Part shown: positions 1-63,218 of the stretch, piece after piece | Layout of the letters: each line of letters starts with the position of its first letter | Position numbering within the stretch: the stretch's first letter is position 1 | Origin: Xanthostigma xanthostigma | Lineage: Eukaryota; Arthropoda; Insecta; Raphidioptera; Raphidiidae | Direction: 5' to 3' | Assembly: GCA_963575645.1 (NCBI GenBank) | Contig: OY754465.1 | Span: forward strand, 28,593,501-28,657,500 | Length of the DNA stretch: 64,000 bases | Notes under the pieces: generated by a model | What the model was told of the DNA's origin: nothing | The model's database searches: none | The model's input: only the letters and a program-made list of their open reading frames with translations | Program-made: the position numbers and the translations under genes

Positions 1-333
1 CGCGGTCGGTTGTCTTTGTTTGCCGTACATGGAAATTAGAAGCAAACGTATGTCTTGTCTTAACATGAAAACAGCTGCATTTCTAACGTTTAATTCAATT
101 TTTTGACATTAGTATATTGTGAAATGCAAAGCCTTCTAAGTTAAGTATTGGAATAACTAATTATTATTAGAACATAATACTTTGTAAGTTGCAAACGTCA
201 CTTTTGACATTTCTTATCATTCCGACACCAAGGATAAGCGGATTGAAACCAAATTTTGGGAGGTTTAGGTTATGTATTACGGAATACGTTATCACGTAAA
301 ACTATCGTCCGTAAACCGACTTTACAGACAACC
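1..333 (+). repeat. Repeat family F1, copy A (cut by window start)
   Basis: This sequence recurs at 16060-17013 (+), 46846-47502 (-) and 60098-61076 (-), with shortened relatives at 43721-43900 and 54286-54517. It runs from a GTCTTTGTTTGCCGTACATG block to the terminus reading ACGTTATCACGTAAAACT and CTTTACAGACAACCAA. Complete copies begin with GACGTGATAACGTC, so the ends carry short inverted GTGATAACGT blocks. No coding sequence is seen, and it looks like a non-autonomous DNA element of unknown superfamily. This copy lacks the minisatellite units found in copies B and C. Confidence 0.75.
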
Positions 334-355
334 AATTTTTTATCCCGATTCTGAC

Positions 356-16059: not shown

Positions 16060-17013
16060 GACGTGATAACGTCTTATAAATTGATGAATCACCAATCTTA
16101 TAAATTGATAAAACACCGGCTGCATGCACGAAAAAGTGTAACGTTCCTAACGCGTAACGTTCCGCCTGACCCTGTGCGTGCTTTTTGCTAATTTCTCGCT
16201 CAATTTAAATCAGATCGGTTTGAAACCAGTCTTAAACGAAAGAGAACATTTTACATAGATTTCGTATAACAGAATTTGCCTAAACAGTTTTTTTATACAA
16301 ATTTATATAGAAAAATGCTGTATAAATGCAATATTGTCTAATGCATGGCGCGACGCGGTCGGTCGTCTTTGTTTGCCGTACATGGAAATTAGAAAATAAC
16401 GTATGTCTTGTCTTAACATGAAAACGGCTGCATTTCTAATGTTTAATTCAATTTTTTGACATTAGTATTTTGTGAAATGCAACGCCTTCTAAGTTAAGTA
16501 TTGGAATAACTAATTATTATTAGAACATAATACTTTGACAGTTGCAAACGTCACTTTTGACATTTCTTATCATTCCGACACCAAGGATAAGCGGATTGAA
16601 ACCAAATTTTGGGAGGATGTTTGATATGCAAATATGAAGTGGCTTATTGTTTTTGGGGAACATCGGCGCATGCGTAAAAGAATATATCTCTTATAATGAT
16701 GTTTTATATAATAATATAGTTTTTAAAACGGTTTTTACTCTATCCATTTTTACTAGAAATTTTTGTAAATTTTTTGGGGAAAATCGGCGCATGCGCAAAA
16801 GAGATACATGCCATAGTTGTTTTTTATATAATAATAGTATACTTTTTATAGTGTTTTATTATTCTACTTAATAAAATTTACCTAAATTTGAAGCGAAAGA
16901 TGCAATATCATAGATTCGAATTATTATAATTATTATATAAATTTAGGTTATGTATTACGGAATACGTTATCACGTAAAACTATCGTCCGTAAACCGACTT
17001 TACAGACAACCAA
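16060..17013 (+). repeat. Repeat family F1, copy B (full length, two satellite units)
   Basis: It starts GACGTGATAACGTC and ends TACAGACAACCAA, and it is inserted in a T-run of the host foldback arm (compare the intact arm at 17845-17870). Between GGGAGG and AAATTTAGG it holds two ~122-bp minisatellite units with cores ATCGGCGCATGCG at 16661 and 16783. The coding-looking stretch over the units is spurious. Confidence 0.8.
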
Positions 17014-17731: not shown

Positions 17732-18055
17732 TAGTATACATAGTTATATTACTTATGTTATATAATAAAAACTGGTATGCGCGAAACTTCCGGCTGTTTC
17801 TAAGCACGCATACCAAGATATTTTTGAAATTGACATTAAAACACGTAAAATAAAAAAAAAAGGATTCCGTGATAATGTAGAAATTGTACCCCCTATCACG
17901 TCACCATTTAAATAGGTCTGCGAGACCTTTCCGGCTAAAAAACATTGATCCGCCGGATTTTTTCGGAATAAGTACGAAATTTTGCACAAAATTACCTAGG
18001 AAAGATCAAAATCCGCGATGACAGGGACACATTAAAGACATTTAACAATATATAG

Positions 18056-30200: not shown

Positions 30201-33200
30201 ACTGCGCAAGACTGTCTTGCGCAGTATCGATTTTTGAGCTAGTGCGCAAATTAGTCTTGCGCAGTGACAAGACTGTGTACGGTTTTATTACCGTTCACGG
30301 CTGCTTGGAACGAACCTAATAATTTTAAATATAATATGGTAGAAGTGTAATTTTGTTTTTAACAAGCATGCACGCCATTTAAATAATCACATACGGTGAT
30401 TTTTTACACAAAACTTTTTCTAAATTTTTCATTAATATGGGCTATATTATCAAGAAATTTGGAGCAAAACGTCGCTAATTAAGAAAATAAATGCAGTATT
30501 GACAACATCAACATGCTAAATTTAACCTCGAATTCGCAGTTTGCACCTAAAATCAAATTGGTTTATAATAAACAATTTAAATAAAATTTTTGGCCGTTAT
30601 GTTACATTTTATGAACTCCTGGGTAAATTTTTGGAAGTGAACCAATTTCTTAAAATGATTTAGTCTATTCATCATGCCAAAATATATGCTTTTATACAAA
30701 GTGATTATTTTGCTTAAAGCTGTCACATAATTTATAAAAATTCCAGAACAAAAATCGAAAAAAATGATTTTACTGAAAACAACTTCAACGATTTTTATAA
30801 AATATTTTCATAAATCTGTATGACTCTACAATTAATTGCATGAATAGTTTTCACTATTTAAAATAATTAGAAAAAAAAAAAACAACTTCATTTGTCCAAT
30901 TTTGCGATTGAAACAATAATTTATTGCTAACCGTAGTTTTTCAAATCAAAGCGATTCTGAATTACTTGTCATACTTCACCTACAATAAAATATGTTCACA
31001 CACATAAAATTACAATTTACTTTTAAGTAAGGTGTTTGTTTTTTTAAAAGTGACATTTAGAACTTTCATAAAATAATATAGTTACGTTATTACTTAAATA
31101 ATACAACACAAAATATCGTAAAAAATGGTGAACGCAATTTAACTACATATTAAACTTTGAAAACAGACTACGTATTGAATTTAAACAAAGCAATTACCTA
31201 CATTACAATATGGTAATAAAACTTGTGTTTTATTTATGAGAAATCAGACCATTATTATTTTCAAACTTCTTTCTTACTGTAACAAATCTAGTGAATTATG
31301 CGACAAAAATATACACGTACGGTGACGCGGGTAACGGTTAGTATTACACATAATTAAAAAAAAAAAAACAATTAGAGCACACAAGTAATTCAAGAATTAC
31401 AAGGCGCGTAATTTTCATATAATATACAATTTGACGTTAAGTAAAAACAAATTCACTAATTAAATGTTAATGAACCCTTGACTAATATTAACATTTACTC
31501 CTAAAAAATATAAGGAGTACTTAGGTATCTATCGAGATGGTTTTTGAATATTTTGTCAGAATGTACTTTACTTTTGGAACGAATTTATTTTCGCAACATA
31601 ATTTAAAATTGTTTCCATTAAATAATTTACTTTATATATTTTTACCAAGTCTCAATTTTATCAAAAAAACAAAAAATTCCTATAGGTATCATCTTAGCAA
31701 CGTCTCGTTTTCAATGACACTGACATTTTGAAATCTACTGCAATATGGTATATGCACATTTCTTGAAAATATTTAAAATCAATTATTTTCATATTTAAAG
31801 TTATCAAACACATAAAATCATTCATTAAAACTAGAGATCGACTGATACGATTTTTTTCGCCGAAACCAATAGTCGGCCAATACCGATGTTTCTATAACTG
31901 GTATCGGTATCGGCCATAGAAAGTATTTTAAACGTCTTGCACCTATAGCGCGGTCACTTCGGTTTTCGAAAACCAATAAAGTAAATCGATTTATTTTTTT
32001 TTTTCAACCGATGGAGTTCGATCCCCCACTTATACAATGTTGAGGAATTTTTAAATTTATAATTTTATTTGCTAAATATAGTGATCGTTTTCTTGTTTGT
32101 TTAAATCAAATTCCTTTAATTAGAATTATTTATTTATTGTCAAACGCTTGATGCTTAAATTTTTTTAAAGCAGTTTAGTAAGTGCTCGATGCTTTTAAAA
32201 TAAGTTGCTTATATTGATTATATATTTTATGTATTGTTGACGAATTTAAACCCTACACTGGGTCTATAATAATAAATCTATTTCTATTTCTATTCTCTCA
32301 AAATATTTCAGGTGATCGGCGGTTGTAGGGGGGGGTGGGGGGCGTATTAAATGAATCTGTAAACGGTTTTTCGAGCATATCTCAGCCGGATCTGATCCTA
32401 CAAAAAAAAATGTAAATGGCGAAATTGAAGAGCTTGAAAAAACACGTAAGCTCGTTCAAAGCTGAGCCCGATATCTCAATCCGTTCGCAAAATATCGCGA
32501 TTTGAAATTGCGAATAAAAAAAATTCAATCAGGTTTTTTCGGAAGGGGGTGGAGTTGGGGCCTCAAATTTTTTTAAGAGGGGTATCAGGGAGCACTTCAA
32601 TGGGCCGGAGGGAGGGGGTGGTGGGACAATTAGGAGGGAAGATATGGGCCTGAAACTAATTAAGCGGAAACGCTTATAGCTCCGAAAGTAATTGAGCTAG
32701 AGGGCCCTACGAGGGCTCATTTTCTTCGTTTTTCTGTGAGCTAAAAGGTGGGAGTGGAGAAAAAATTAATTTTTGCAAATGCGCAAACACGGCATGCAGC
32801 TGCTGATTATTTAATTATTATTTACATCTGTCCACTCTACATTCGGCAGCAGGTTACTCCGGTTACACGCATAACTGAATCGCCTCTCTCCGAAAATAAT
32901 CGTGAGATAAAAATTGGCATTTTTTGTTTAGTTCAATTACTTTCGGAGCTATAAGCGTTTCCGCTTAATTAGTTTCAAGCCCATATCTTCCCTCCTAATT
33001 GTCCCACCACCCCCTCCTTCCGGCCCATTAAAGTGCTCCCTGATACCCCTCTTAAAAAAAAATTGAGGCCCCAACTCCACCCCCTTCCGAAAAAAACCTG
33101 ATTGAATTTTTTTTTATTCGCATTTTCAAATCGCGATATTTCGCGAACGGATTGAGATATCGGGCTCAGCTTTGAACGAGCTTACGTGTTTTTTCAAGCT

Positions 33201-36200
33201 CTTCAATTTCGCCATTTACATTTTTTTTGTAGGATCAGATCCGGCTGAGATATGCTCGAAAAACCGTTTACAGGTAAATTTAATACGCCCCCCCCCCCCC
33301 TGCAACCGCCGATCACCTGAAATATTTTGAGGGATAAGGGGGGGATCGAACTCCATCGGTTGGAAAAAATAAATAAATCGATTTCCTTTATTGGTTTTCG
33401 TGCCGTCTATTTCGCCGAAGTGACCGCGCTACTAAGGTTTCTTAAAATCTATAAAAAAAGCTTTAAATGTAAAAATATGTGTTCCTGATTTTACCCAATA
33501 ATATTAATAATATTTGATTTTTGTTATTCTATTGCCCTTTGAGTTAATTAAAATGATATAATCTAACAAAAACTTAAAAAAATTGAACCTCCTTCAAAAA
33601 AGAGCACTTTCCAATTTAATTACTGTAGCGTTTTATATACCTATGTGTTTTTATTAAATTCACGCCAACCTCATGTGCAGGCAAATTAGCATATTATTTA
33701 GAAGCCAAGACCAACATTAATTGTAGACAGAACTTTTATCATTGTAAACGGTAAAGGGGCTTATAATGAACGTAAAAAATAAAAATGCCCGGCCAGGGGT
33801 AGTAAAGGGTTAATTCGGGGGGGTCAAAAAGGGGGGCAAAATATCTTATAGCGTTTTTCAGCGAAACTTAATGTTCTATAAAAAAATGTTCTACAGGACA
33901 GTTGTAGAACATAAAAAGATCTACAACTTTCATAGAGGTCACTTTTTACTGTGATCTCAAAATGTCCGTGAAAAATGTAAAATGTGCGAAGAAAACGATT
34001 CTTTTGTTTTTTATTTTTCATTTTCGCATAAATGACTCAATTTTGATAAAATTTTGTGAAAGCATGCCTCTTTATGTCTTAAATAAGCACAAATATTTTT
34101 ACATAAAAAAATCGAAAAGTTTTTGTGATATTTAGTTCTTTCAGTCAAAAACCATTTTTTTTCAAATGAAAATTCTACGGTGAAAATTCATCGCACAGAG
34201 TTCTTCCTGTGCTTTTTTTTATTGTTTTTAGATGTACTTTCTGATACAATAATAAAAGTTAATAGTGCCTATTTAACAACACGCTCAAAAATTGGAAAAA
34301 CTAAAAAATTACTTTTGTAACTATGAATTTTTTAGTAATTGTTGATAATTTGTTTAAATTTTTAAGAAAATTGAAAAACGGATTACACCATATAATTGTA
34401 CGGACAAATATACAAAAGAAACTGTCTTTCATTGTTTGACCGGAAACCTAATTTTTTTGCAGTAATGCTATAAACATTAAATTAGAATAATAATGCTTCA
34501 CATAAGTAAGCAAAATAATCTTTTTTTTTGTCATAGAATAAAAATATAATCAAAACAAAATTGTAGATCATGAAAAAATCTGTAACTTTTGTACAGGTTA
34601 CTATATAACATAACCTCAAAACTTCCGAGAAAAATGCAAAAAACCCTATTTTTTAGTATTTTTTACTTTTTATTTCTAAATTTTCATTTTTGAGAATTGT
34701 TTTTGAATTGTGAGTATAAATTTTCATTATTTTAAAGTATAAATGTAACAATAAAAAAATAAGCACCGACCGAACCGTGTACGATGATTTTTCACGTACA
34801 TGGTTCGGTAGGTGCTTATCTTTTTGTTTTGATATATACTTTTAGCTAAAATAATGAAAATTTATACTCACAACTCAAAAACATGTTCAAAAATGAAAAT
34901 TTAAAAATAAAAAGTAAAAAATACTAAAAAATAGGGTTTTTTGCATTTTTCTCGGAAGTTTTATAAATTTTTTGTAGAAAGTCGGTGCATGCGCAGGAGA
35001 ATTATGTTCTAATATCGTTTTTTATATAATAATCGTAGACTTTTCATAACGGTTTATTATTCTATCTGTTTTCAAGAAAGTTTTGTGATTTACTTTTGGG
35101 GAAAATCGGCGCATGCGCAAGAGATATTATGTGCTATAACGTTTTTTATATAACAATGGTATACTTTTCATAGCGGCTTATTATTCTATCTGTTTTACAA
35201 GAAATTTTTGTATTTTATTTCGGGGAAAATCGGCGCATGCGCATCAGAGATATATTTTATAACGTAGTTTTTTATGTAATGATGGTATAGGCACTTATCA
35301 AAACGGTTTCTTATTCTATTTTACAAGTTTTGTAAAAACAATTTTTGGAGAAAATCAGCGCATGCGGAGAAAAGATATACCTACTATTTAATGTTGTTTT
35401 TTATATCATAACGGTTAATTAGTGTGTATATTTTTACAGGATAGATATGAAAAAAATGTGTTTTTCTAAATTTGTAGTTTCAGAAATATTTTGAAAATAA
35501 AAAAATCTATTGTTCTTTTGTTCTGTAGATGTTAGTTAGGTATTTGACAAGCATGCTTTGTTTAATTTTAACATAACGTGATAATATATAGAAAACCATT
35601 AAAACTAATAGCAAATTGTATAATGTTTAGTGGTAACCGTTACCCGCGTTACTGCACGCGTTAACGGAAATTTTATTTTCTTTGTTATTATATGTCAAAT
35701 GTCAATATTATTATTTATTGGTTGGAAAGGCCCCGTCGTCCAATTTGCTGCAATTTTTTCGAATAGATCTAATTACTAAAACTTTGAAATTTCACACACA
35801 TGTATATAAGTCTGGTGACAATGCCTATATCCAATATGGCGGATGCCCTAAGATGACGGAATACATTTTCCTTCACAACCATCTTGAATAAAATAATCAA
35901 ATAATTTTTAAATTAATGCCATAATAGTTAAAATTTTGAAAGACTAAAAACAAGAAAAATAAAATACTAATAAAAAAAAGTTTTTATTGAAATGTACCAA
36001 AAACGAAATATAATTATTTTAATACTCCAGTGCATTTAGAAATATTTTATAGGTTTGACCCAAAAATTTCAGATACATTTTTTTTTGTTGCTTATTCGAA
36101 GGGGTCTTCGATGGAGACCTTAACCCTGAATTTGCGCATTCCCCAAATTGCCCCGTCCGCCGCCATCTTGGATTCTGTTTTTTATTTTCAATTGCTCATA

Positions 36201-42483: not shown

Positions 42484-43720
42484 TGTCACATATTGATACT
42501 TGGAAAATAAAAGGCCACATCACTCCAAAATGAGCACAACACTACTATATGAACATAGCAGCATATATGTCAATAAAAAGAACTTAGACTATAGAGTTAA
42601 GGACATATAAATCATTGCGTGCGTGTGTTGACTTTCAGCATCAAAACTGAAGTGCCAGTGGGGTAACAGTCCGACTAGTACCTGCTATTATATAAGAATG
42701 TGAAATTTATATTGAGTGATTATCTTGGATTTTACATCAGGAATATGTTGTAATGTGATTAATTCTTTAATTTTCAAATTTAAATTTTGTTGTTAACGGT
42801 TCTTATATACATACCTATGTGTAAATCTACAAAACGTTTCTCTATGCTTATAAGCAGTTAAGAAAAAATATTTAAAAATGAGAGAAACATGGGCCTTAAT
42901 AACTCATGAAACTACGGTTTAAGAAAATCGATTTGTACAAAAGACAAAACATTTCGTTTTTTTTCTAGAGTTATTGAGCAGAACCAAATTAATATAAAAT
43001 ATAATAAGTATCATACAATATTCTTTATTTTTGTAATCAAAACAAACAGGAGTATAATTAATATTCCAGCCAATTGGGCAACATATTCGAGGTGTCAGAC
43101 ATTTTAAATGGTTCATGTTATTTGTCAGAGAACATTATTTTAGCGTTTTGGTTGAAGTTTTTAAGCTCAATTAAAAGAACAAACAGGATCTATAAATTTT
43201 TACATGTCGTCAAAATGACATCTTTCGGAAAATTTAGAGGGAAAACGCCCCAAAATCAAGAAATGTCATAGAGGAAATAGGTGTCAGACTAGGCCTAATG
43301 AAGCCATATACAAAGTTTGGGGAGAGTATTTGTCAGTAAAATTTTTGCCGACGGGCACTCTAATATATTAGAAATTCAAAAGTAAATTGTTCTTTATTGC
43401 ACCCTACGCCACTGGAGAAATGGCGATATAGATCCAAAAAACCACATTCAAAAGCTAATTTATTAGCGAAAATTTAAAAGAATGCTTCCCAAAATATTAT
43501 TGTTAGCTTTAATACTGTATAAAATAAATCATATTTAGAAGCCATGGCTATAAAATAACTACTTTTAAAGATATTTGCGTTCATTGTTGTAGATGCCATA
43601 TATGTGATTTATTAACCTATGAAACGTTACTTCAGGCTCTATTCTACCGTTTTGGCTTTAACAGCCATAAGCTGCACACACCAACCATTGTGCACAACAC
43701 AGTATTTTTATCAAAAAAAA

Positions 43721-43900
43721 TTGGTTGTCTGTAAAGTCGGTTTACGGACGATAGTTTTACGTGATAACGTATTCCGCTCGAATATCATATTTAATAATAC
43801 ATTACTGCGCTCTCGCTTACACGCACAGGGTCAGACGGAACGTTACACTTTTTCGTGCGTGCAGCTGGTGTTTCATCAATTTATAAGACGTTATCACGTC
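43721..43900 (-). repeat. Short F1 derivative (180 bp)
   Basis: TTGGTTGTCTGTAAAGTCGG...ACGTGATAACGTATTCC at one end and AAGACGTTATCACGTC at the other are the two F1 termini, with only ~100 bp between. It behaves like a deletion-derived MITE of family F1. Confidence 0.75.
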
Positions 43901-44023
43901 AAAAACTTAGTCCGCCATATTGATTTTAGACTGACGTCACTTTATTTTTCGAGTTATTCTCAGCAAGTCCGTTCATTTGAATCATATGATACCCATATTG
44001 TAGGAAAGCATAATAAAATTAGT

Positions 44024-44307
44024 CCGCCATCTTTAGAAGTCCGCCATATTGGATTTAGAGTGACGTCACACAGCTAACCATGCATTGTCATTCAAACTAA
44101 ACGTGTATACAAATTTTCATCTCAATCGGTTGATGATATCTGCTTCAAAATTACCGAAGGCATTTCCGCCATCTTTAGAAGTCCGCCATATTGGATTTAG
44201 AGTGACGTCACACAGCTAACCATGCATTGTCATTCAAACTAAACGTGTATACAAATTTTCATCTCAATCGGTTGATGATATCTGCTTCAAAATTACCGAA
44301 GGCATTC
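44024..44307 (+). repeat. 142-bp tandem duplication with CRE and YY1-like motifs
   Basis: Two nearly identical units each contain CCGCCATCTTTAG, CCGCCATATTGG, the palindrome GTGACGTCAC, then CTCAATCGGTTGATGATATC and end GAAGGCATT. A partial third module lies upstream at about 43910-43985. It is part of a TE-like sequence between two gene starts. Confidence 0.85.
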
Positions 44308-45137: not shown

Positions 45138-48100
45138 GTAAGTGTTTTTGTTCAATCATCAAATTACAAAAATATGATTATTAAGTGTTTTGTATAATAT
45201 TAAAATCTTTGATTAACATCTGATTAGAACTCTTCAATAAATAAAATTATCGACCAATTTTTCAGACAATATATTAACAAAAAATATAATTAATACATTA
45301 ACGTTTAATTCTAATTCGCTTTATAAAGCGAATTAGAAATTAAATATTAATTATTTTTTATATTTTTTAGATCAGTTCTGAAGAAGATCCAAACCCGGAT
45401 TGAAACGTTAATGTATTAATTATATTTTTTGTTAATATATTGTCTGAAAAATTGGTCGATAATTTTATTTATTGTATAATCTTAAATTTAGATAACGCAA
45501 GATGACGGACTTCCAAGTCTTTTGTGTCACCGATGTGTTCTTGCTATTAGCAGTGCGTTTAATTTCAAACAACAGTGCGAAAAATCCGAATCAACTTTAC
45601 GAACATACATAATCAGCGTAAAAGAAGCTAACGAAAAGGTAAATAACGTACTGCAAATTATTTACTTTACATGAATTAAAAAATTATGTATTACTAGCAG
45701 CGCGGCTCGATCCGGCTTCGCCCGAATTTGTAGATTGCCACCGTTTTTTTCTCGACTTACGTTGCAAAATTGGTCTCCACGAAAAGCGTTTTTGTTTTAA
45801 CGAGTTAATAGGTATAATAGCCTATATCAATCTTGAAGGTTCATTCTAAATATTGGTGACAAAAATTTTGAAATCGGATGAGTAGTTTCGAAGATTACTC
45901 CCCACATCCAAACTTTACCTCTTTACAATATTAGTGTAGATTAGGGTTGCCAGAATATCTTTATGCAAAAATGTTCAATTTTGTTCTCTTTTTTCGGTTT
46001 CTCTTTACGAGATTTTATTTAATATTCGAACAAGCTGTAATCTCTTTGGATATACATAAAAAACTGCATTGGAATTTGCGTTCTAAATTATCAATTGTTA
46101 TCTGATAATATCGATTCTTAACGTGTAATTTTAATTGTGGCGAGATTATAATTAATGTTTTACTACAGTCTACAATTATATGGATCTTACAACATGAGGG
46201 AGCGCATTAACATTTAATTCTTAATGTCCCGATAATAACAGTCCATTTAATAGTAATTAGTCCTTTCTTCTTTTATTTATTTTTTCTTTCTTCTCTACAA
46301 CAAATTGATCTTTTTCTTTTCTTTCACTATTATAAGCACATTATTATATAATTATGTACTGAACTACAGTGCTAATAACTCTGCGAGTTGATGCACGATT
46401 TTTTATTTCCTTTTGTTTTGTATTTTATGTTCTTTTGATTTAAATAAAAAAAAAAAAAAACATTTAATTAACGAAAGATACATTTACAATATCAAAGCCC
46501 CCCCCCCTCCGAATTTGAAATAGTGGAATAAATTGTGAAAATTCACGAAGTCTTATACTTCCTACTAATCCCATTAATTTAACTTTATGGAACTTTGGCG
46601 CCTGCCAATTTCTTCGATTTACATTTAAAGGTTCGAACTATGGTTTATGATCTAATTACAGTACGTATGCTATAATCGGATGTCCATGTACTCTCATAAC
46701 TCTTGCATAGCCCCCCCCCCCCCCCACCTCCAACAAAACTTGGAGTACGCTATTGCGCATACTTATATACAATAACTATAGCTTTTACCCGCGACTTCGT
46801 CTGCATGGAATCAGTGTGTACAATTGATATAATTTATTAAAAAAATGGTTGTCTGTAAAGTCGGTTTACGGACGATAGTTTTACGTGATAACGTATTCCG
46901 TAATACATAACCTAAACCTCACAAAATTTGGTTTCAATCCGCTTATCCTTGGTGTCGGAATGATAAGAAATGTCAAAAGTGACGTTTGCAACTTACAAAG
47001 TATTATGTTCTAATAATAATTAGTTATTCCAATACTTAACTTAGCAGGCTTTGCATTTCACAATATACTAATGTCAAAAAATTGAATTAAACATTAGAAA
47101 TGCAGCTGTTTTCATGTTAAGACAAGACATACGTTTGCTTCTAATTTCCATGTACGGCAAACAAAGACAACCGACCGCGTCGCGCCATGCATTACACAAC
47201 ATTGCATTTATACAGCTATTTTTCTATATAAATTTGTATAAAATATTTTTCTATATAAATTTGTATAAAAAAACTGTTTAGGCAAATTCTGTTATACGAA
47301 ATCTATGTAAAATGTTCTCCTCTTTCGTTTAAGACTGGTTTCAAACCGATCTGATTTAAATTGAGCGAGAAATTAGCAAAAAGCACGCACAGGGTCAGGC
47401 GGAACGTTAGGAACGTTACGTTACACTTTTTCGAACATGCAGCCGGTGTTTTATCAATTTATAATATTGGTGATTCATCAATTTATAAGACGTTATCACG
47501 TCAAAAAATGATAAATTCAACATGACTCTAATTTAAACAATGTTTTTTGTTTTACCATCTTTTGCGAAAACATAAAGAGTTTGTGAATTCGATACACGTG
47601 AGCAAGCCGTATACAGCTGACCGTGCTAAAAACATGTTTTTTTCTAAATGAATGCCAGCTATCTAAAGTGTTTGCCTCTGGGATTTGTTTATAGTTATTC
47701 TGAAAGCAGTTTTTAGTAAAAATGGTAATCTTTTAAATTGATAAGGCAAATCCGTTGGTAATGTTGGTATAATTGGTATTCATGGTATTAAAACACTGTC
47801 TCGTATAGATTTGCTACTAATTTTAATAGTTCTAACAATATTTTGATCTGGATGAGAAATTTGTTAACGTCTGCCATTACACAATTTGGGCGCATCAAGA
47901 TTTCGCATTAACAATACCGAAACACCCACTTTAATCTTAATTTATGAGAAGATATTTAACCCCATAGGGGTTAATTTTTGAAAAAAGAAGTAGTTTATGT
48001 TCTTCCCTAGTTTATAAACTATCTCCATATTAAATTTAATCACAATCGGCCCAGCGGTCTGGCCTTGAAAGCATAACTTCATACGATATTACAACTCCCA

Positions 48101-51100
48101 TTTCATCCCCATAGAGATTGAAATAAAAAAAAGTAGCCTATGCTCTTCCCCAGGCTTCAAACTATCTCTATATTTTTCACCACAATCGACCCAGCGGTTT
48201 GGCCGTGAAAGCGTAACAGACAGACAGAGTTACTTTCGTATTTATAATATTAGTATGGATAATGGATATATAGAAGTTACAAATTTTATAGTCTAATCTT
48301 TAGAAACTATATCAAGTGCCGTAATGTGATCCTAATATTTCAGTGTACGAACCTTCGTTGGGCCCTCGATCTAAATAATTTCATTACAAAAACTGATTTT
48401 AGGTACATGACGGTTCAGAAATGACAAGTACAGCTATAAACGTTTTAAATAATGATCTTTCCGTTTTAAAATGTGGAAAACAACTTTCTGAAAATAAATT
48501 AAATGCAAAAGAAATTGAGAAGTTAATAGGAACTTCAGTAAAAGATAAATTTAAATGCAGTGGTAATAACCCACAATCAGGTAGTCAGTATAGATCGAAA
48601 TTTCAAAGAATTTCAAAAAAGAACCCAAGAAAAGAGATAAATAAACAAGTTAAAACTTCTGAAGTGTCAGATGAAAATGAAATTAAAAACGGTAAGAACG
48701 TTAAAACTTGGACATGTCATTTCTTTGGGTCCATAAGCAAAAATGTTAATATTTTCAGAAAACGATAAAAAGATTGAAAAGTGGGTGCAGCTAATAATTA
48801 AACAAAATTCAGAGGCAATAATAGAGAACATTACCTGTAGCATTTGTAAAAAACAATTTAAAGGTTTGTATTGTGATAATAACATGATTATTAAATTTCG
48901 ATTATAATATGACGAAAATTTATTTTAGATATTCGTCAATTTAAAAAACATTCAAAGATCCATAGTTTATCTAAAAGACACATTTGTGATGTATGCGGCA
49001 AATCTTTTTACGGAATTAGTGACTTGAAAATACATACACGAACCCATACGGGTAAGAAAAAAATGGTGTTATTTAATGGGTTAGCCATATTCATGTTTTT
49101 GTGAGCAGGAAAATGTAATCGGTCAGCCATAATAGCTAATTGGTCAGCAACTCATGGTTAGCAAACATTTCCAAATCAATCAGCAATTTATGCCATTCTG
49201 GACAGCTGTCAAAATATTTGTACAGCTGATTAAATATTATATAAGCTGCAATGAGTGACCCTTAATAAGTAAAATTTTGGTAGCACTCAGGGGGTAAGCA
49301 AAATATTCAATTTTATGCAGCAAATAAAAGTCTAGCAAAAATATCTATGTACTTTACTTCTCATGGCAGGGTCCAGTACGATAACTCAATGTGCCCAAAT
49401 TTTGACTTTTCTTAAGTCAGAAAACGCTAAATTTTGGCATTCCAAAAAAAGGTATAATTTGCTGATTGTTCACAAAATTCAAAAATACGTAAAAAAATGA
49501 ACTACTTTTCGTCTTTCACTCTCATTTTTTAATTTTACCAATCAGAAATCACAATATATACACGTCATAGCAACTTGTGTAGAATTATTAGTGTATTACT
49601 ATCTCACTTTGTATACACGATTCTGTAATTGTTTTTTAAAGAACTCCCTCCAAGCGCCCTCCCCTTTTCACTGCGAAAAAAAAAACGACATCACATCGAC
49701 ACGACCCTGAATTTGTTTTTGTTTTTTAAAGAATTTCCCCCTTTTCACTGCGCAAAAAACACGCCATCGCATCGACACGACCCCGTAATTGTTTTTCAAA
49801 GAACTCCTCCCAAACGCAAATGCAATCCAGTTGTTTATATTGTTAACCATATTTTAAATACGCATACCAATGAGATAAACTGCATATAGACATGTTTTCT
49901 CTGCTGACCAATTTTGAAATCTTGTTGACCAAGTTATCATTTTGCTGCGCGACTGTTTATTAAGCAGATACCTACATAATATTGCTAGTTGCCCGCTTAT
50001 GGTTAAAGTACTGACCCTTATTAAGATTCTTTGCAGAACATGGATTGTAGCCCGATTTTTATTTATTGCAAACAAAATCTTTGTATGCTGACCAAATGAT
50101 TTGATTGATTTTTGTTGCTAACCAAATTTCATTACTGCTAACCAATTATTTATTTCCCAAAAAAAAGAAAAAAATACTATCGAAAATAAAAAAAAACATT
50201 TTGAGTTTCAATTGATTTAACAAATACAGTATCACACTTTCGATCGTTTTCTAAAATTATTTTGTCAGATTTTGTGACAAAATAAATTTAGGTACCTATC
50301 TATATTAACATGTAAGCGGGATTTGCCTGTATTGTCATTATAACCCAAGGGATAGCGTGGCAAATGAGTAAGTAATTTCATACCGGCTGATATTCAATGT
50401 TTGTTATCATCAAAGACGTTGAAATATGTATAAAAGTTATCTGAGGTGCTAATGTAACTCGTGAGGTATCGACAATTAACTGCACTGGTAGTGATGGGGG
50501 GGGGGGGGTGGTTGTGAGAAGATGCTAAAGTTGTAAAAAAAAATCCCAAAAAATGTTTTTTTTTTGTCTTGAAGATTTGTCAAAAAGAAATTAGGTACCT
50601 GACAAGCGTGCTTTGGTAAATTTTTACAGGTAAAACCATTTTATGTAGCAATGCAAATGAATAGCAAACATAACATTTAAGTTGTTACCGCGACCAGAGT
50701 TTTTATTATGTACTAGCCGCTACCCGCGGCTACGCCCGCGATTGAGATGGAAATCGACTTTTGACATGCATATTAGGGGTTGAGGGAGGCATCGAGTAAA
50801 AAAATCTTTCAGGCAAATATTGCACATGTTTTCCCGAAAAGTTATAATTTTTGTGATAAAAATAGGTGTTCCTAAAAATGTCCAAGTCACCCTCATTCCT
50901 GTGCAGGAGTTGGGGTGGGGGTGATATTTATCTCCAAAGAATGTCCTCTTCAAACTAAACAACAACATAAAACCCCTTCATAACGGGTGCTTACGTCATA
51001 AAAGGAAACTACTGTCACATTTTATCGTGATCCATCTTAATCGCGGGAAAAAATTGTTATTTAGATCAATACAAATTAATAATAAATTATGACTTTTTAG

Positions 51101-53734
51101 AATTTTTCTTTTCAAGTGTAATAAATTGCAAAATTGATGACATTCACGTGATCAACGCCCCGACAAACCTTGAAAATGACACCCATGTTGATTTTTAGAC
51201 TATTTACCTTTTTTCACCCTCTGACGGGGTTGTTTTTAAAAAATCTCGGAACACGTGTTTATTTATTTGTTGAAAGGAGTAATCCTGCGCATTTTCGAAT
51301 TGATACATCTATCTTATATGATTTCTCCATGCAAATTTTGAACCCCCGTTACACCCTTTTAGGGGTTGAATTTTCAAAAATCCGTTCTTAGCGGATGCTA
51401 CGTCATAACAACTATCTGTGTGTCAAATTTTAGCCCACTCCCTCCAGTGGTTTCAATCGAATAACTTCAAAAACGGAAAGTTTCATACATACTTTGCACC
51501 CCCTTTTTACCCCCTTAGGGGATACATTTCCAAAAATCCTTCCTTAGTGCACCCCTAGACCTCATAAGGAACCTGTGTGCCAAATTTGGAGTCTCTAGAT
51601 CCAGCGGTTTGCGCTGTTATTTCATCCCATTTTTTTCACGTTTTGTCACCCCATTTCCCCTTTTAGGGGTTGAATTTTGAAAAATCCTGAAACACGTATT
51701 TACTCATTTAGCGCCAGGAGTATTCCTGCAAAGTTTCGAATAAAATGGTCTGACTAATTTTATTTCTCCATACAAACTTTGCACCCCCGTTTTACCCCCT
51801 TAGGGGATGAATTTCCAAAAATCCTTTCTTAGTGCTCCCCTACGTTATAAAAGGAACTCCTGTACAAAATTTCAAGTTTCTAACCCTTATAGCTTAGGCC
51901 CTGCGTTGATATGTCAGTCAGTCAGCTTCTCCTTTTATATATATAGATAGACTAGCGGCCCTGTACGTGCTTCGCTACGTATAAAGTGAAATAATAAAAC
52001 AATTTAATTGGAACATCTATCTATCTATCTATCTATTTTATTAATTGCTAGCTATTTTAAAATATACATGGGCGTATATGTGTGTATGTCGAGCACTCCG
52101 GCTGCGCCGTCGTGCCGAGCAGTTTTAAACGATATTCAGTTTTTTTACATCCTCGATCTAGATATATGGTTGTTAAGTTCGTTGCGCCATCTATTGAATA
52201 TTCACTCAATCATCTTATATGGTTGTTAAGTTCGTTGCGCCATCTATTGAATATTCACTCAATCATCTTATATGGTTGTTAAGTTCGTTTCGCCATCTAT
52301 TGAATATTCACTCAATCCAGTCAACAGCCATCTTATATGGTTGTTAAGTTCGTTGCGCCATCTATTGAATATTCACTCAATCCAGTCAACAGGTTCGCCA
52401 TCTTATATGGTTCTAGTATGACTGTCAAGGAATAGACAAATAATTTGCAATAAAATAATATTGCGACTATAAATTGAAATGTAAGCTATCCTATCTTTCA
52501 AGTTGGGTCGAATTGCACACGGTGTGCAAATCAAATTTAAAATCGGTTCAGTAGTTTAGGAGTTATCGCGGACAAACATCGGACAAACAACGTGACACGT
52601 AATTTTTATATATAAAGATAGATTTGTTTAATTAGACATGTTGACTAATCTTAGTCTTACTCTTACGTGTGGGATAAGCAAAATTCCAGCCAAATTGGTG
52701 ACAGGACCATTTCAATTTCAAAAATACTATCATTTGACATAATATTAGAATAAATAAAATTTTCCTGTTAACACGCGAATAACGACTAGTAATAAATATT
52801 GTGATATTCGTTTAGATCGTTACATCATATGGTTTTACCTACAAAATAAAAGAAATAAAGAAAATGTTTAATATACCACGTTTTTAAAGCGAACTAAAAA
52901 GTATAAAAAAAATTCTTTAGAGACAGATTTTTAACTTGTAGAATTTGAAACGAAAAACGTGGGACATTTTTTTCGTTTATCTCATAAATAGATTTTTTAT
53001 TGATAGCTACCTACTCTCTACACTTCTTATATTACTGACGCATGCGCCCCACGTTTTTCGTTTCAAATCCTACAGGTTAAAAATCTGTAAAGAAATTATT
53101 TGACACTTTTTAGTTCGCTTTAAAAACGTGGTATATTAAAACAATATTTCTTGTATTTTTATACTTTTTAGTTAAAAAAAAAATCAAAAATAAAACTAGC
53201 ATATGACCCATGGGGGATTGAACCCGCGACCTTCGCGTTATTAGCACGACGCTCTAACCAACTGAGCCATACACCACTGATAGCTAAATGCTGTGCCTTA
53301 CAACGGTAAACAAGTAAGAATGAATTATATGTATCTGTTCACCCAGGCAGACGCACAAGAAAGCGAGTTAAATAAAACGTGGTAATAAAATGAACCAAAG
53401 CATGCTTGTCAGCTATCTTACTAATTTCGTTTACAGATCTTCAGAACAAAAGAACATCTTTTGGAATGATTTTTTTACAACTTTAATATCTTTTCAAGAC
53501 CAGCCCCATCGCAGATGTGACGGCTGACTCTTACTTTCCTTATTGTTCATGCCTAATAAATAGAACTTGACTGGTATGAAAACACTATGAAAAATGCAAC
53601 GCTATCTACCGGACTATTAATTTAAATTAAATTTTATAAATATATTACAGGAGAAAAACCTCTACAATGCTCAGTTTGCTTAAAAAGGTTTGCAGACCCG
53701 AGAGGCTTAAATAGCCACATGAAAACGCACACAG
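45000..53734 (+). CDS. Second ZAD-C2H2 zinc-finger gene, 5' part (continues past window)
   Basis: Exons 45000-45137, 45492-45638, 48403-48691, 48759-48863, 48929-49051 and 53651-53734 join in frame to 295 codons plus one base, so the gene is incomplete at 3'. The ZAD has C16, C19, C58 and C61 as likely zinc ligands. A Lys/Ser/Asn-rich linker (exon 3) follows, then three C2H2 fingers: CSICKKQF...[13 protein letters not shown]...HTRTH and CSVCLKRF...HMKTH. Finger exons break inside the HTGEKP linker, so further finger exons are expected after 64000; none was seen between 53735 and 64000. It is a probable DNA-binding nuclear regulator with unknown target. It starts 2.5 kb from Tango1, head-to-head. 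Confidence 0.88.
45229..45475. mobile_element. Inverted-repeat element in ZAD gene 2 intron 1
   Basis: The arms AATAAATAAAATTATCGACC / AATTTTTCAGACAATATATT and the inverse bracket an AATTCGCTTTATAAAGCGAATT hairpin. The right arm includes the CTGAAGA...GAAACG module of the repeat family at 356-465. It fills most of a 354-bp intron. Confidence 0.8.
45492..45638 (+). CDS. ZAD gene 2, exon 2
   Basis: It follows acceptor AAATTTAG and encodes [15 protein letters not shown], the second ZAD half, through KEANEK. It ends before GTAAAT. It is 147 nt, phase 0 at both ends. Confidence 0.9.
45694..45940 (-). mobile_element. Short Helitron-like element (ZAD gene 2 intron 2)
   Basis: Read on the minus strand it begins TCTACACTAATATTGTAAAG and ends ...CGCGCTGCTAG between A and T. 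It contains TTTGGATGTGGGGAGTAATC, and a related piece lies near 39905-40015. Confidence 0.7.
46776..48259 (-). mobile_element. Helitron-like element split by F1 copy D
   Basis: The minus-strand start is TCCATACTAATATTATAAAT with ACTCTGTCTGTCTGTTACGC, a text common in Lepidoptera. The other end reads GACGAAGTCGCGGGTAAAAG / CTATAG. F1 copy D (46846-47502) interrupts it. Two internal blocks (CAATCGGCCCAGCGGTCTGG and CAATCGACCCAGCGGTTTGG) are duplicated. Confidence 0.6.
46846..47502 (-). repeat. Repeat family F1, copy D
   Basis: It has both F1 ends (TGGTTGTCTGTAAAGTCGG; ACGTTATCACGTC) but no minisatellite units, the join reading AACCTAAACCTCACAAAATT. A ~30-bp ATATAAATTTGTATAAAA block is duplicated. 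Confidence 0.8.
48403..48691 (+). CDS. ZAD gene 2, exon 3
   Basis: It follows acceptor CTGATTTTAG after a 2.8-kb TE-filled intron. It encodes a polar linker with basic [13 protein letters not shown] and ends AAAAACG before GTAAGA, phase 1. Confidence 0.82.
48759..48863 (+). CDS. ZAD gene 2, exon 4
   Basis: It follows acceptor ATATTTTCAG. It ends in the first half of finger 1 (CSICKKQFK) before a weaker donor, GTTTGT. The finger is completed only by joining to exon 5, which supports the splice. Confidence 0.82.
48929..49051 (+). CDS. ZAD gene 2, exon 5
   Basis: It follows acceptor TTATTTTAG. It completes finger 1 (HSKIH) and encodes finger 2 ([21 protein letters not shown]). It ends ACGG before GTAAGA within the linker. 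Confidence 0.88.
49075..50165. repeat. Degenerate repeat region in ZAD gene 2 intron 5
   Basis: Motifs GGTCAGC, GGTTAGCAA and their inverses GCTGACCAA and GCTAACCAA recur at both sides, suggesting an old inverted-repeat element. In the middle (49640-49820) an ~85-bp degenerate tandem (AAAGAACTCC, TTTTCACTGCG, CATCGACACGACCC) occurs about 2.5 times. No gene is seen. Confidence 0.5.
50713..51947 (-). mobile_element. Helitron-like element
   Basis: The minus-strand start is TCTATCTATATATATAAAAG. The 3' end has a CGCGG-GCGTAG-CCGCG hairpin followed by GGTAGCGGCTAG and T. The body repeats CCCCCTTAGGGGAT / TTTCCAAAAATCC blocks. It has no Rep/helicase. It abuts the next Helitron almost base to base. 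Confidence 0.7.
51952..52622 (-). mobile_element. Helitron-like element with 53-bp tandem array
   Basis: The minus-strand 5' part is TCTATCTTTATATATAAAAA with GTTTGTCCGCGATAACTCC. The 3' end has TACGT-AGCGAAGC-ACGTA then CAGGGCCGCTAG and T. The 52164-52413 array lies within. Confidence 0.7.
52164..52413 (+). repeat. 53-bp tandem repeat, ~4 copies
   Basis: The unit ATATGGTTGTTAAGTTCGTT / GCGCCATCTATTGAATATTC / ACTCAATCATCTT starts at 52164, 52217, 52270 and 52335. The last two copies are extended by CCAGTCAACAG. Two overlapping open frames here are repeat translations. Confidence 0.92.
52877..53147. mobile_element. Inverted-repeat element, arms ~90 bp
   Basis: The arms TATACCACGTTTTTAAAGCG / AACTAAAAAGT and GAAACGAAAAACGTGGG are mirrored around a centre containing GACGCATGCGCC. 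No coding was found. Confidence 0.8.
53204..53276 (-). tRNA. tRNA-Ile(AAT)-derived pseudogene
   Basis: On the minus strand, GGCTCAGTTGGTTAGAGC (D arm), TCGTG-CTAATAA-CGCGA (anticodon arm, AAT) and GGTCGCGGGTTCAATCCCC match tRNA-Ile closely. The T stem has two mismatches (C-C and G-A) and the acceptor stem is poor, so it is more likely a tRNA-derived repeat head than a working gene. A T10 run lies downstream. Confidence 0.7.
53651..53734 (+). CDS. ZAD gene 2, exon 6
   Basis: It follows acceptor ATATTACAG after a 4.6-kb intron. It encodes the linker GEKPLQ and finger 3 ([21 protein letters not shown]), and ends ACAG before GTAAAA in the next linker. Confidence 0.9.
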
Positions 53735-54256: not shown

Positions 54257-54285
54257 GAGCTAAAAATATAGGTATATAAAAAAAA

Positions 54286-54517
54286 TTGGTTGTCTGTAAA
54301 GTCGGTTTACGGGCGATAGTTTTACGTGATAACGTCATAAAGAAACATTGATGAACTCTCTGACGTCACGCGAGAAGAGAGAGAAATGCGTACAAGCCGA
54401 CGCTTGGGCCGATCGTGCCTCTCTATCGCTTATACCGCGCTCTCGCTTGCACGCTCAGGCTCAGGCGGAACGTGACACTTTTTCGTGCGTGCAGCCGGTG
54501 TTTCATCAATTTATCGG
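54286..54517 (-). repeat. F1-derived fragment
   Basis: It starts TTGGTTGTCTGTAAAGTCGG and carries CGTGCGTGCAGCCGGTGTTTC, the other F1 end, truncated before the final GTGATAACGTC. A TGACGTCA site lies between them. Confidence 0.65.
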
Positions 54518-57667: not shown

Positions 57668-59346
57668 TAGCCCAGGATATTTACAGAAAACATAGCTGTT
57701 TTTTCAAATAGATCAACCGTCGATTTTCTCAACGTGATAAATAGCAGAAAAATAGTAGTAATCGAGGAAAAATACAGTAGAAAAAATCTGGCTTGGGCAA
57801 GGTTGGTAAAAAAATTCATTAAGTGGCCTAAAAGTGGTATTTTAAGATTTAAGCAGTTAAAAAAAATTTTTCCGAGAACATAAAAAATATCACGTTCTAA
57901 TGTTTAAAAAGACAAAAAAAATGAGCTTTGTAGACTTTAAATCGGCTGAAAATTGTTGGCAGAAAAAATTAAAAACGACGAAAAAGTGCCATTTTTGCAC
58001 CATTTAATTGCCAGGGCCCATTCCATCGCAGAGACTTCGTTCAAGGCTTAAATTGTAGCATTTAGTGGCTACTATATTAGGGCAAAATTTCGTTAAAATC
58101 CATACGCAAGTTTTTGCGTTATTCCCGATTAAGTGAAAACAGGTGCTTCTGTAAATCTTCTGCCATATGGCCCATAATGGTCCTAGGGTAAATATTCGAA
58201 CGGTTTTCTGTTGGGGAAGAGTTACTCTACAGCCCCTATATATGAAAATGGTGTAATTAGTACGCAAGTACGTTAAAAACGCCTTCGAAAATCGGCTTTT
58301 CCGAGCTCCGAGCGCTCCCGCTGGAAAGTGAAGGGGAAACGGCGGCAGAGTGGGGGAAGCCTATCGCAGCAGTATCAGCAGTATAAATAAATTTGAGTTA
58401 TCGCAAATTATTAATACATAAATTATTTTATCAACATATCCTATGTAACAATTACCAACATGCAATTAAAAAAAGGTATGGAAGTGACACTTGCATGGAC
58501 TCGGAAATACGCTGATTATTCATAGTTTCAAAAACTATCACTTTTTAAAAAAAAAGGAGCATTTTCATACAGTGGTTGCCGAGTTATCAGTGTTTTTACC
58601 GGTACCTGCAATTTGAACGCCCGAGCTCACGTTTCCGCGCTTACTGCTGACACTGCTGCGAGAGGCTTCCCCCACTCTGCCGCCGTTTCCCCCTCACTTT
58701 CCAGCGGGAGCGCTCGGAGCTCGGAAAAGCCGATTTTCGAAGGCGTTTTTAACGTACTTGCGTACTAATTACACCATTTTCATATATAGGGGCTGTAGAG
58801 TAACTCTTCCCCAACAGAAAACCGTTCGAATATTTACCCTAGGACCATTATGGGCCATATGGCAGAAGATTTACAGAAGTACCTGTTTTCACTTAAACGG
58901 GAATAACGCAAAAACTTGCGTATGGATTTTAACGAAATTTTGTCCTAATATAGTAGCCACTAAATGCTACAATTTAAGCCTTGAACGAAGTCTCTGCGAT
59001 GGAATGGGCCCTGGCAATTAAATGGTGAAAAATGGCACTTTTTCGTCGTTTTTAATTTTTTCTTCCAACAATTTTCAGCCGATTTAAAGTCTACAAAGCT
59101 CATTTTTTTTGTCTTTTTAAACATTAGAACGTGATATTTTTTATGTTCTCGGAAAAAATTTGTTTAACTGCTTAAATCTTGAAATATCACTTTTAGGCCA
59201 CTTAATGAATTTTTTTACCTACCTTGCCCAAGCCAGATTTTTTCTACTGTATTTTTCTTCGATTACTACTATTTTTCTGCTATTTATCACGTTGAGAAAA
59301 TCGACGGTTGATTTATTTTAAATTTTAAATTAAATACCCTGGGCTA
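57668..59346. mobile_element. Long hairpin (foldback) element, arms ~700 bp
   Basis: The ends TAGCCCAGGATATTTA and TAAATACCCTGGGCTA start arms (57668-58385 and 58641-59346) that are nearly exact inverse copies, with a 255-bp spacer. Inner blocks CGAGCTCCGAGCGCTCCCGC, CGGCGGCAGAGTGGGGGAAG and CCGTCGATTTTCTCAACGTG occur in both. A mirrored 87-codon frame in each arm differs by one residue, showing high arm identity; I read it as a by-product, not a gene. Confidence 0.92.
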
Positions 59347-59932: not shown

Positions 59933-60097
59933 ATGAGAATATCTGTTTCTATAAAATTATTGGCAGCTTTATAATTTTTAGGCGCGAATAGCGTAAGCTA
60001 AAGCGCCTATATGTACTCGCTTTGTCTGTGAATCTGTATGTCACGCTTTTTTGTGGATTGTGTACAGCTCAAACGCCTTAACCGATTTTAAAAAAAA

Positions 60098-61076
60098 TTG
60101 GTTGCCTGTAAAGTCGGTTTACGGACGATAGTTTTACGTGATAACGTATTCCGTAATACATAACCTAAATTTATATAATAATTATAATAATTTGAATCTA
60201 TGATATTGCATCTTTCGCTTCAAATTTAGGTAAATTTTATTAAGTAGAATAATAAAACACTATAAAAAGTACACTATTATTATATAAAAAACAACTATGG
60301 CATGTATCTCTTTTGCGCATGCGCCGATTTTCCCCAAAAAATTTACAAAAATTTCTAGTAAAAATAGATAGAAAAAAAACCGTTTTAAAAACTATATTAT
60401 TATTATATAAAACATCATTATAAGAGATATATTCTTTTACGCATGCGCCGATGTTCCCCAAAAACAATAGGCCACTTCATATTTGCATATCAAACATCCT
60501 CCCAAAATTTGGTTTCAATCCGCTTATCCTTGGTGTCGGAATGATAAGAAATGTCAAAAGTGACGGTTGCAACTGTCAAAGTATTATGTTCTAATAATAA
60601 TTAGTTATTCCAATACTTAACTTAGAAGGCGTTGCATTTCACAAAATACTAATGTCAAAAAATTGAATTAAACATTAGAAATGCAGCCGTTTTCATGTTA
60701 AGACAAGACATAGGTACGTTATTTTCTAATTTCCATGTACGGCAAACAAAGACGACCGACCGCGTCGCGTCATGCATTAGACAACATTGCATTTATACAG
60801 CTATTTTTCTATATAAATTTGTATAAAAAAACTGTTTGGGCAAATTCTGTTATACGAAATCTGTGTAAAATGTTCTCCTCTTTCGTTTAAGACTGGTTTC
60901 AAACCGATCTGATTTAAATTGAGCGAGAAATTAGCAAAAAGCACGCACAGGGTCAGGCGGAGCGTTACGCGTTACGAACGTTAGGAACGTTACGTTACAC
61001 TTTTTCGTGCATGCAGTCGGTGTTTTATCAATTTATAAGATTGGTGATTCATCAATTTATAAGACGTTATCACGTC
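60098..61076 (-). repeat. Repeat family F1, copy C (full length, two satellite units)
   Basis: Both termini are present (TTGGTTGCCTGTAAAGTCGG; AAGACGTTATCACGTC), and between them lie two minisatellite units (cores at about 60315 and 60443), as in copy B. Confidence 0.82.
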
Positions 61077-61439
61077 AAAAACTTTTTTTTGTTCGATTCG
61101 TCTCCGGGTAACTTAGATCCTAACGTCGCCCGATTTTTGAATTTTTGCTCCAGAGGGGAGCAATTTAGAAAAAACGCTCAATTTAAAAATTTTACATAAA
61201 TTTCGTACAACAGAATTTGTCCAATCAGTTTTTTTATACACATTTATGTAGAAATAAATTCAATTTGATATAACCGATAGCAAACATCTTTCGGTTATCT
61301 CTCTCTCTGTTGTACGGTTTAACATAGCAATTTAAAGGTTGCGTATGTTCTGTCTTAAAACAAAATTGGTCGATAATATTATTTATTACAATAATGAAAT
61401 AGAAAGATAGCATTTGTTCAAAAACGGATGCCGTTTCGA

Positions 61440-62640
61440 ATATTTGTGAAATGCAACGCCTTCTGAGTTAACAATTTGAATAATTAATTATTAGAACATA
61501 ATACTTTGACAGATGTAAACGTCACTTTTGACATTTCTTACCATTCCGACACCACGGATGAGCGGATTGAAACCAAATTTTGGGAGGATGTTTGATATGC
61601 AAATATGAAGTGGCCTATTGTTTTTGGGGAACATCGGCGCATGCCTAAAAGAATATATCTCTTATAATGTTGTTTTATATAATAATAATATAGTTTTTAA
61701 AACGGTTTATTATTCTATTTTTACTAGAAATTTTAGTAATTTTTTTTGGGAAAACGGCACATGCGCAAAAGAGATAATTGCCGTCGTTGTTTGTTTTTTT
61801 TTTTTTTTAAATAATAGTGGTGTACTTTTAATAATGGTTTTTTATTCTATTTTACAAGAAAGTTTTGTAAAATGTTTTTTTTTGAGAGAAAGTCGGCGCA
61901 TGCGCAGAAGAGGTATAAGTTATAAAGTTGTTTGTATATAAGAATGGTATACTTTTCATAACGGTTTTTTATTCGATCTATTTTTACAAAAGTTTTGTAT
62001 AATTTTTGGGAAAAATCGGCGCATGCGCAAAAGAGATACATGCCAATATTGTTTTTTATATAATAATGGCGTACTTTGTATAGGTAATGTTTTATTCTAC
62101 TTTACAAGAAAGTTTTGTGAAATGTTTTTTTGAGGGAAAGTCGGCGCATGCGCAGTAGCGGTATAAGTTATAAAGCTGTTTGTATGTAACAATGGTATCG
62201 GTACTTTTCATACAGTTTATTATTCGATCCTTTTTTACAAGAGTTTTGTATAATTTTTGGGAAAAATCGGCGCATGCGCAAAAGAGATACATGCCATAGT
62301 TGTTTCTTTATATAATAATGGTGTACTTTTTATAATGTTTTATTATTCGATCTATTTGTACAAGAGTTTTGTAATTTTTTTTGGGAAAAATCGGCGCATG
62401 CGCAAAAGATTTTCATGCCATCGTTGTTTTTTATATAATAATGGTGTACTTTTTATAATGTTTTATTATCTTATTTTAAAGAAAGTTTTGTAAAAAATTC
62501 TTTGAGCTAAAGTCGGCGCATATTTGCTATAAAGTTGTTTTTATATAATAATTAGGGTACTTTTCATAACGGTTTATTTTTCTATCTGTTTTTACAAGAA
62601 AGTTATGAATTTTTTTCTAAACTCATAATTTCAGAAATAT
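61440..62640 (+). repeat. F1 fragment with expanded 125-bp minisatellite (~8 units)
   Basis: It begins with the F1 block ATGCAACGCCTTCTGAGTTA...AAATTTTGGGAGG. It then continues into units with cores at 61634, 61755, 61885, 62017, 62142, 62268, 62392 and 62514. Units alternate between a GGGAAAAATCGG type and a GAGAGAAAGTCGG type, giving a ~250-bp dimeric order. Open frames on both strands are repeat translations. Confidence 0.88.
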
Positions 62641-63218
62641 TTTGAAAAAAAAAATTGTTCTTTTGTCCTGAAGATGTTAGTTTAGGTAGTTCTTTGTTTA
62701 ATTTTTGCATGACATAATAACACGGTTTTTTCAATATTTCTTTGAATCTTTAAGGTTATGTGAAAAAGTTGTATTCATAAAAGTTGTAGATCCTTTAATT
62801 ACCTACAACATTGCCATACAACATTTTTCGATTGGAGGTCAACTTTTGAATTTTTGGTTTTTGTATTTCTGATGGCAGTTTCTTCCCTTCCTCATCATTC
62901 GTTTTCTGTTATTAACTTCACTGGTCTATTAACTGATAAACTAATTAAAAAAAAACATTGTTTCGGCAGGATTTTCGCAGGCAACCTTAGCGATCTTTCT
63001 TAATTATGGTCTTAACTATCATCTGTAATTTTTCCGTTCGTCCACCTTATAACGACACATTTTCTGCAGCCGTCTCTTGGACTATAACTTTATATTAAAT
63101 TTTATATACTAATATTAACTTTTTGCTAATGTATATTTTTTTTATAATTTTTATTTAGATTTGTCATATTTGTTCTTTAGTTATAAATAATAATTATGTA
63201 ATCTCCATTTTTGCAGAT

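Follow-up and report, generated by a model that had tools for sequence, protein, structure and literature searches.

Tandem units of about 125 bp occur inside copies of the transposon family F1 and outside them in the window, i.e., the whole 64-kb stretch of DNA analysed here, and the longest array of such units, at 61620-62616, raises the question of whether a satellite is being born there from a transposon. The first-pass annotation had answered that it is, with the units expanding out of F1 and settling into an emerging dimer order of ~250 bp.

Tandem units in the window

The units are organized in an array of eight (X), an array of four (Y) and one pair in each of the F1 copies B and C (Table 1). 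The earlier counts, about eight units at 61440..62640, four at 34977-35420 and two in each of copies B and C, are all borne out, with the array limits redrawn as in Table 1; in addition, a partial unit precedes the Y array from about 34944. The X units are anchored at 61634, 61754, 61893, 62016, 62141, 62267, 62391 and 62513 and are of three types, X1 by itself, an a-type (X2, X4, X6 and X7) and a b-type (X3, X5 and X8), with half of the core missing in X8. TRF describes the X stretch by a period of 123 over 5.0 copies with 71% matches, and by a period of 251 over 2.4 copies with 83% matches. The core of the unit, the palindromic box TCGGCGCATGCGCA, occurs 24 times at up to three mismatches in the 64-kb window, against 0.87 occurrences expected and a maximum of 4 in 100 shuffles. 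Fifteen of these matches are unit cores (16 units, X8 being unmatched), eight are opposite-strand readings of the same palindromic sites, and one (36133, minus) is unrelated. A profile built from the 16 units (8 X, 4 Y, 2 B and 2 C) recovers them and finds no further units below an E-value of 0.5 in the whole 64-kb window. A long homogenised head-to-tail array is absent from the window, the longest array being the eight X units at 64-91% identity.

The secondary structure of the unit is unexceptional in the four units folded (z from -0.90 to +0.29). Exact patterns for the unit core and for the F1 3' end, which the window contains 5 and 6 times, respectively, give 0 matches in viral_contigs, F1 copy B has no match among phages, and the string GCGCATGCGC was met, among the papers listed for it, in one on an unrelated subject. 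Two bacterial sequences in genome_contigs that match a further pattern, itself absent from the window, resemble the unit over about 20 bp only and carry no weight either way.

Table 1. Tandem units, F1 copies and adjoining features, with positions counted from the start of the window
Feature	Position	Strand	Remarks
F1 copy A	1..342	+	no units; cut by window edge; lacks the same about 325 bp as copy D
F1 copy B	16060..17013	+	complete element between T-runs, nested in foldback repeat
Copy B 5' subterminal repeat	16060..16073	+	palindromic, GACGTGATAACGTC
Copy B unit pair	16649..16868	+	B1 121 bp; B2 99 bp (truncated)
Copy B 3' subterminal repeat	16964..16975	+	ACGTTATCACGT, 38 nt before T-run
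Copy B 3' inverted repeat	16985..17007	+	able to pair (GTC.GTAAA / TTTAC.GAC)
Intact foldback arm	17759..18054	-	paralogous empty site for copy B; T10 vs T12 at site
Y array	34968..35420	+	four units (Y1-Y4), the last well defined only as far as 35420; TRF, sequence comparison
Y array 3' flank	35421..35584	+	palindromic GACAAGCATGCTTTG within 35544-35560
Short element	43713..43905	-	both F1 ends, no array
F1 copy D	46838..47508	-	no units; lacks about 325 bp, array included
Short relative	54275..54514	-	3' end as in F1, 5' subterminal region in part, without array
F1 copy C	60090..61081	-	two units
Copy C unit pair	60243..60465	-	second unit cut at 99 bp
Weaker F1 homology upstream of X	61186..61442	+	61186-61254 88% identical; 61255-61442 barely alignable
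F1-like block	61443..61619	+	directly 5' of X array
X array	61620..62616	+	eight units X1-X8, 118-139 bp; TRF, core-motif search, identities, tree
X array 3' flank	62617..62720	+	common to Y array, unrecognisable in F1

End anatomy and insertion site of F1

The ends of F1 share a short sequence, ACGTGATAACGT, which matches 11 times at up to one mismatch in the window against 0.21 matches expected; all 11 matches are exact, and all 11 lie at F1-type ends. It stands against the 5' T-run as the palindrome GACGTGATAACGTC, at a spacing that depends on the number of Ts assigned to the element, and near the 3' end an inverted copy of it, with an inverted repeat after it, precedes the T-run by 38 nt. 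T-runs adjoin all five 5' ends and all six 3' ends inspected. The 5' palindrome folds better than most shuffles, only 4 of 200 being as good. For the 3' inverted repeat of copy B, 27 and 29 of 200 shuffles fold as well, and for that of the relative at 54275-54514 the figure is 33 of 200.

HINEs, as described by Thomas et al. 2014 (PMC4067079), carry palindromic subterminal inverted repeats of 11-15 bp and a palindrome near the 3' end, with spacings, published for mite HINEs, of 2-4 nt between the 5' repeat and its end, 38-60 nt between the 3' repeat and its end, and 8-35 nt between the palindrome and the end; according to the same description, they insert in T-rich sites without target modification, vary in T number and optionally contain tandem repeats. 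F1 resembles these HINE or DINE-1-like elements (PMC4067079) in its palindromic subterminal repeats of 12-14 bp, in the spacing of the 3' repeat, and also in T-run insertion, variable T number and optional central tandem repeats, the comparison covering described anatomy; an inverted repeat is likewise present at the 3' end, though its folding is no better than that of many shuffles. On the grounds of its subterminal palindromes, T-run insertion and empty site, and of a 3' inverted repeat of unexceptional stability, we assign F1 as a probable HINE (non-autonomous Helentron) family of an insect with central repeats, known by its end anatomy and its insertion in T-runs. Central repeat arrays of HINEs have already been published, and F1 is probably another HINE family with such repeats.

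A Pfam scan of 7 of the 17 long ORFs in the window yields no Rep/helicase domain. At 813-2294 on the minus strand, a reverse transcriptase ORF (RVT_1, E 1.7e-34) is probably part of a retroelement, and one window ORF has a zf-AD domain (E 3.1e-7), an arthropod domain, beside C2H2 fingers, which makes an insect or another arthropod the probable host.

Copy B interrupts one arm of a foldback repeat, the other arm of which is intact. When the flanks of copy B are joined, the site reads T12 where the intact arm reads T10, and elsewhere the arms show ordinary divergence. F1 has inserted here in a T-rich site without target site duplication, a duplication of TT being indistinguishable from Ts brought by the element. 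The possibility that F1 is a cut-and-paste MITE was rejected, as the flanks and the intact arm differ at the site by two Ts only. The foldback (long inverted repeat) element itself is represented by parts at 15858-16059, 17014-17110 and 17759-18054, one arm being interrupted by copy B, and further long inverted-repeat structures, with pieces of 111-391 nt that are 83-99% complementary, lie at 57702-59322, 36078-38066, 11814-12703 and 32403-33228.

Unit relationships and array flanks

The same unit is nearly unchanged between copies B and C, with 97.5% identity for B1/C1 and 99.0% for B2/C2, whereas pairwise identity among the X units is 63.8-91.0%. Within F1, unit 1 and unit 2 have just about 75% identity with one another, and their closest likenesses lie in the X array, unit 1 sharing 94-96% identity with X1 and unit 2 sharing 92-93% with X6. 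No b-type unit exceeds 73.7% identity to an F1 unit, and the Y units are 65-80% identical to the other units. F1 unit 1 resembles X1 while F1 unit 2 resembles X6, arguing that at least two unit types were distinct before F1 and X split; from these comparisons, an age of the unit types greater than the F1/X split is well supported. The proposed expansion of units out of F1 is not supported by this comparison of units within and outside F1, as the F1 units are nearest to two separate positions of the X array.

A unit tree of 127 columns, in which 9 of 13 inner branches are unresolved, groups X1 with B1 and C1 (support 100/100), B2 and C2 with X2, X4, X6 and X7 (89/94), and X3 with X5 (98/93), with X8 joining the latter pair at 72/89 (94/92 on the B2 columns). 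AU tests, 13 in all with 2 rejections, were applied to groups chosen after the identity table was seen, and their p values are uncorrected. A clade of all X units is rejected (p 1.3e-57), which follows from the pairing of X1 with F1 unit 1 alone and says nothing of growth versus loss; its use as an argument against growth was therefore discarded. A clade of X2-X8 gives a p-AU of 0.017, which would fail correction for 13 tests. The tests reject none of the remaining groupings, namely X2, X4, X6 and X7 without B2/C2 (p-AU 0.225 on all columns and 0.353 on the B2 columns), X4, X6 and X7 (0.287; 0.392), B2, C2 and X6 (0.359; 0.233), B2, C2, X6 and X7 (0.359), Y1-Y4 (0.18), Y1-Y3 (0.191), b-type with unit 1 (0.191) and b-type with a-type (0.393). 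We also discarded the closeness of B2 to X6 as proof of contraction, because the tree tests allow later a-type growth, and some of the X units may stem from growth more recent than the split from F1.

The array flanks add a second line of comparison. In the F1-like block 5' of the X array, 10 of 156 sites (61443-61598) differ from copy B, and across the junction itself (61599-61640) only 1 of 42 sites differs from copy B and none of 42 from copy C; further upstream, 61255-61442 is about 42% different from F1. The same junction in X, B and C argues for inheritance of the 5' link and against two separate joinings. Over the well-aligned block, X differs from copy A at 15 of 147 sites and copy A from copy B at 5 of 147. 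Ten aligned sites split A and D from B and C, and of these X shares the B/C state at 7 and the A/D state at 2, the last site matching neither pair. With the root placed by hand at the midpoint, on about 150 columns, we infer that the array was present in the common ancestor and that its absence from A and D is a loss, another root allowing gain.

On the 3' side, the X and Y flanks resemble each other with a score of 125 (best of 200 shuffles 48). The X flank compared with the F1 flank stays at shuffle level, with 33 and 60 of 200 shuffles as good, and the Y flank resembles the F1 flank weakly, at a level that 2 and 6 of 200 shuffles reach; judged by these alignments, a very old 3' flank common to X, Y and F1 is conceivable. 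Relatives of the X/Y flank that carry the palindromic GACAAGCATGCTTTG or a near match to it, and no units, lie at 53354-53538 (minus) and 50486-50697. The Y flank scores 83 and 69 against them, respectively, and the X flank 41 and 48, values reached by none of 200 shuffles (best 39-43); profile E-values for these relatives are circular. The palindrome GACAAGCATGCTTTG is found at 35544, at 53396 (minus, 1 mismatch) and at 50599 (2 mismatches) and is absent from X. The X/Y 3' flank may represent a 3' module belonging to a second HINE or repeat family, with GACAAGCATGCTTTG as a candidate only.

No F1 5' block lies beside the Y array. As Y is both diverged and without this block, units are found in different contexts within the window, which goes some way toward the first-pass annotation's own counter-case of abundant, older units far from F1. 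At the own ends of the X and Y stretches ACGTGATAACGT is found in neither case, so that neither stretch displays both terminal modules of a HINE. Directly before the Y array, and overlapping its first part a little, lies an 87.6% palindromic (foldback) repeat at 34618-34962.

Taken together, we regard it as probable that the units are central tandem repeats of HINEs, in an array that is older than F1, was passively carried and is now old and decaying. The parts of this explanation that are directly observed are the element anatomy, the T-run insertion with one empty site, the unit relationships, and the shared and unshared flanks. The array would have arisen in an ancestor older than F1 and would have been copied along passively by the rolling-circle machinery of an autonomous Helentron, a partner presumably acting in trans, while slippage or unequal recombination may have shifted the number of units. 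Copies B and C would then have inherited a two-unit remnant cut inside the second unit, and the sublineage of A and D would have lost the array, which would make contraction and loss the direction of change in F1. The X stretch would be an old relative in decay, F1-like in its 5' block but not in its 3' flank, which also stands beside the Y array.

The X, Y and F1 arrays are similar to Cg_HINE of the oyster, described as having short satellite-like arrays of 100-200 bp units between left and right modules that differ and that are common to several element types (PMC7492417). In contrast, the Cg_HINE units mostly measure 140-180 bp (PMC7492417), versus about 125 bp here, and no related classical satellite is known here.

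Alternative origins and possible growth of the array

The array may also be seen as a portable module common to two HINE types, in which selection would keep the box TCGGCGCATGCGCA, e.g., for binding or as a recombination hot spot, as the remainder of the unit decays, a possibility that we hold to be rather doubtful. The core reaches a column identity of 91.9%, compared with 70.1% for the remainder of the unit and 71.4% immediately upstream, and 49 of 5000 column permutations are as conserved; this test covers 14 of the 16 units (the copy C pair was left out) and 120 of 149 columns, with gaps uncounted, so that the half core of X8 has no weight, and the units were cut and anchored on TCGGCGCATGCGCA, which itself favours conservation of the core.

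It is unlikely that the array is an independent repeat captured separately by two element families, the F1 units having come from outside. Such captures would fit a Y array that has no F1 5' block, and they would also fit the existence of X/Y-flank relatives without units. However, X joins its F1-like block to the array at the very junction seen in copies B and C, which these captures would have had to make twice.

Improbable, too, is a first-stage satellite, in which unequal exchange would have multiplied F1 units at 61620-62616 and a dimeric higher-order repeat would be taking shape. The X array does contain more units than copies B and C, it has the 251-bp period and the likeness of X3 to X5 and of X4 to X6, and the AU tests allow a-type growth after the F1 split as well as a b-type kin to unit 1. 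However, its units are old and unhomogenised: identities are 63.8-86.6% at lag 1 and 67.5-91.0% at lag 2 (hand-computed means about 71% and 77%), adjacent units being no more alike than others, and the b-type units are remote from both F1 units. A nascent satellite, as the first-pass annotation had it, thus finds no support in the window, given the divergence of the X units, set against the near identity of units between copies B and C.

The dimer order is weak. The unit types follow one another as X1, a, b, a, b, a, a, b, and the dimer order is limited to units 3-6, with X3 91% identical to X5 and X4 82.5% identical to X6, the step from X6 to X7 breaking the pattern. Permuting the eight units gives an excess of lag 2 over lag 1 at least as strong in 2256 of 40320 cases (5.6%), and permuting units 2-8 does so in 500 of 5040 (9.9%). 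Alternating types repeated beyond one duplication, as in a higher-order (dimeric) repeat, were not found in the X array; a single duplication of a two-unit segment (X3X4 / X5X6) would be enough to account for the ~250-bp dimer. Of the emerging dimer proposed earlier, the 251-bp period remains, and an order that extends past units 3-6 does not.

The size of the X array also finds a counterpart in the oyster. In Crassostrea gigas, the clusters CL1-13, all assigned to HINEs, comprise 7,151 arrays with an average of 3.62 units (PMC7492417), 1,729 of which have at least 5 units according to Table 1 of that paper, its discussion giving 9%. The longest among 14,591 arrays of 100-500 bp units there has 29.3 units, and one truncated HINE is described with 8.7 units (PMC7492417). 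Eight units lie within this published range of oyster HINE clusters, and by these array sizes the X array is ordinary (PMC7492417).

The row of 2, 4 and 8 copies is not to be taken as a growth series, as the longest array consists of units much more divergent than those in the F1 copies. What the window presents is one array with 0, 2, 4 or 8 units and with two kinds of flank, illustrating how the central repeats of HINEs may shrink, vanish and change partners. The suggested path from a TE-internal repeat to a satellite stands in so far as the units are transposon-internal repeats; the expansion from F1 toward a satellite is unsupported. DINE-TR1 is a case in which TE-internal repeats give satellite-like arrays. 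In other animals, too, such repeats are a published source of satellites (PMC4079207; PMC7492417), and in Drosophila virilis the internal repeats TIR-220 of Tetris also form kilobase satellite-like arrays (PMC4079207). F1 is similar to Tetris in having tandem repeats within a non-autonomous DNA transposon, proposed for Tetris as a satellite source; Tetris, in contrast, resembles foldback elements and has kilobase arrays (PMC4079207), and no such array occurs in this window.

Two other tandem repeats are present in the window. At 44023-44306 there is a perfect (100%) tandem duplication of 142 bp, which is probably recent, and at 52163-52392 there are about four copies of a tandem repeat of 53-65 bp (TRF 85% and 98% matches).
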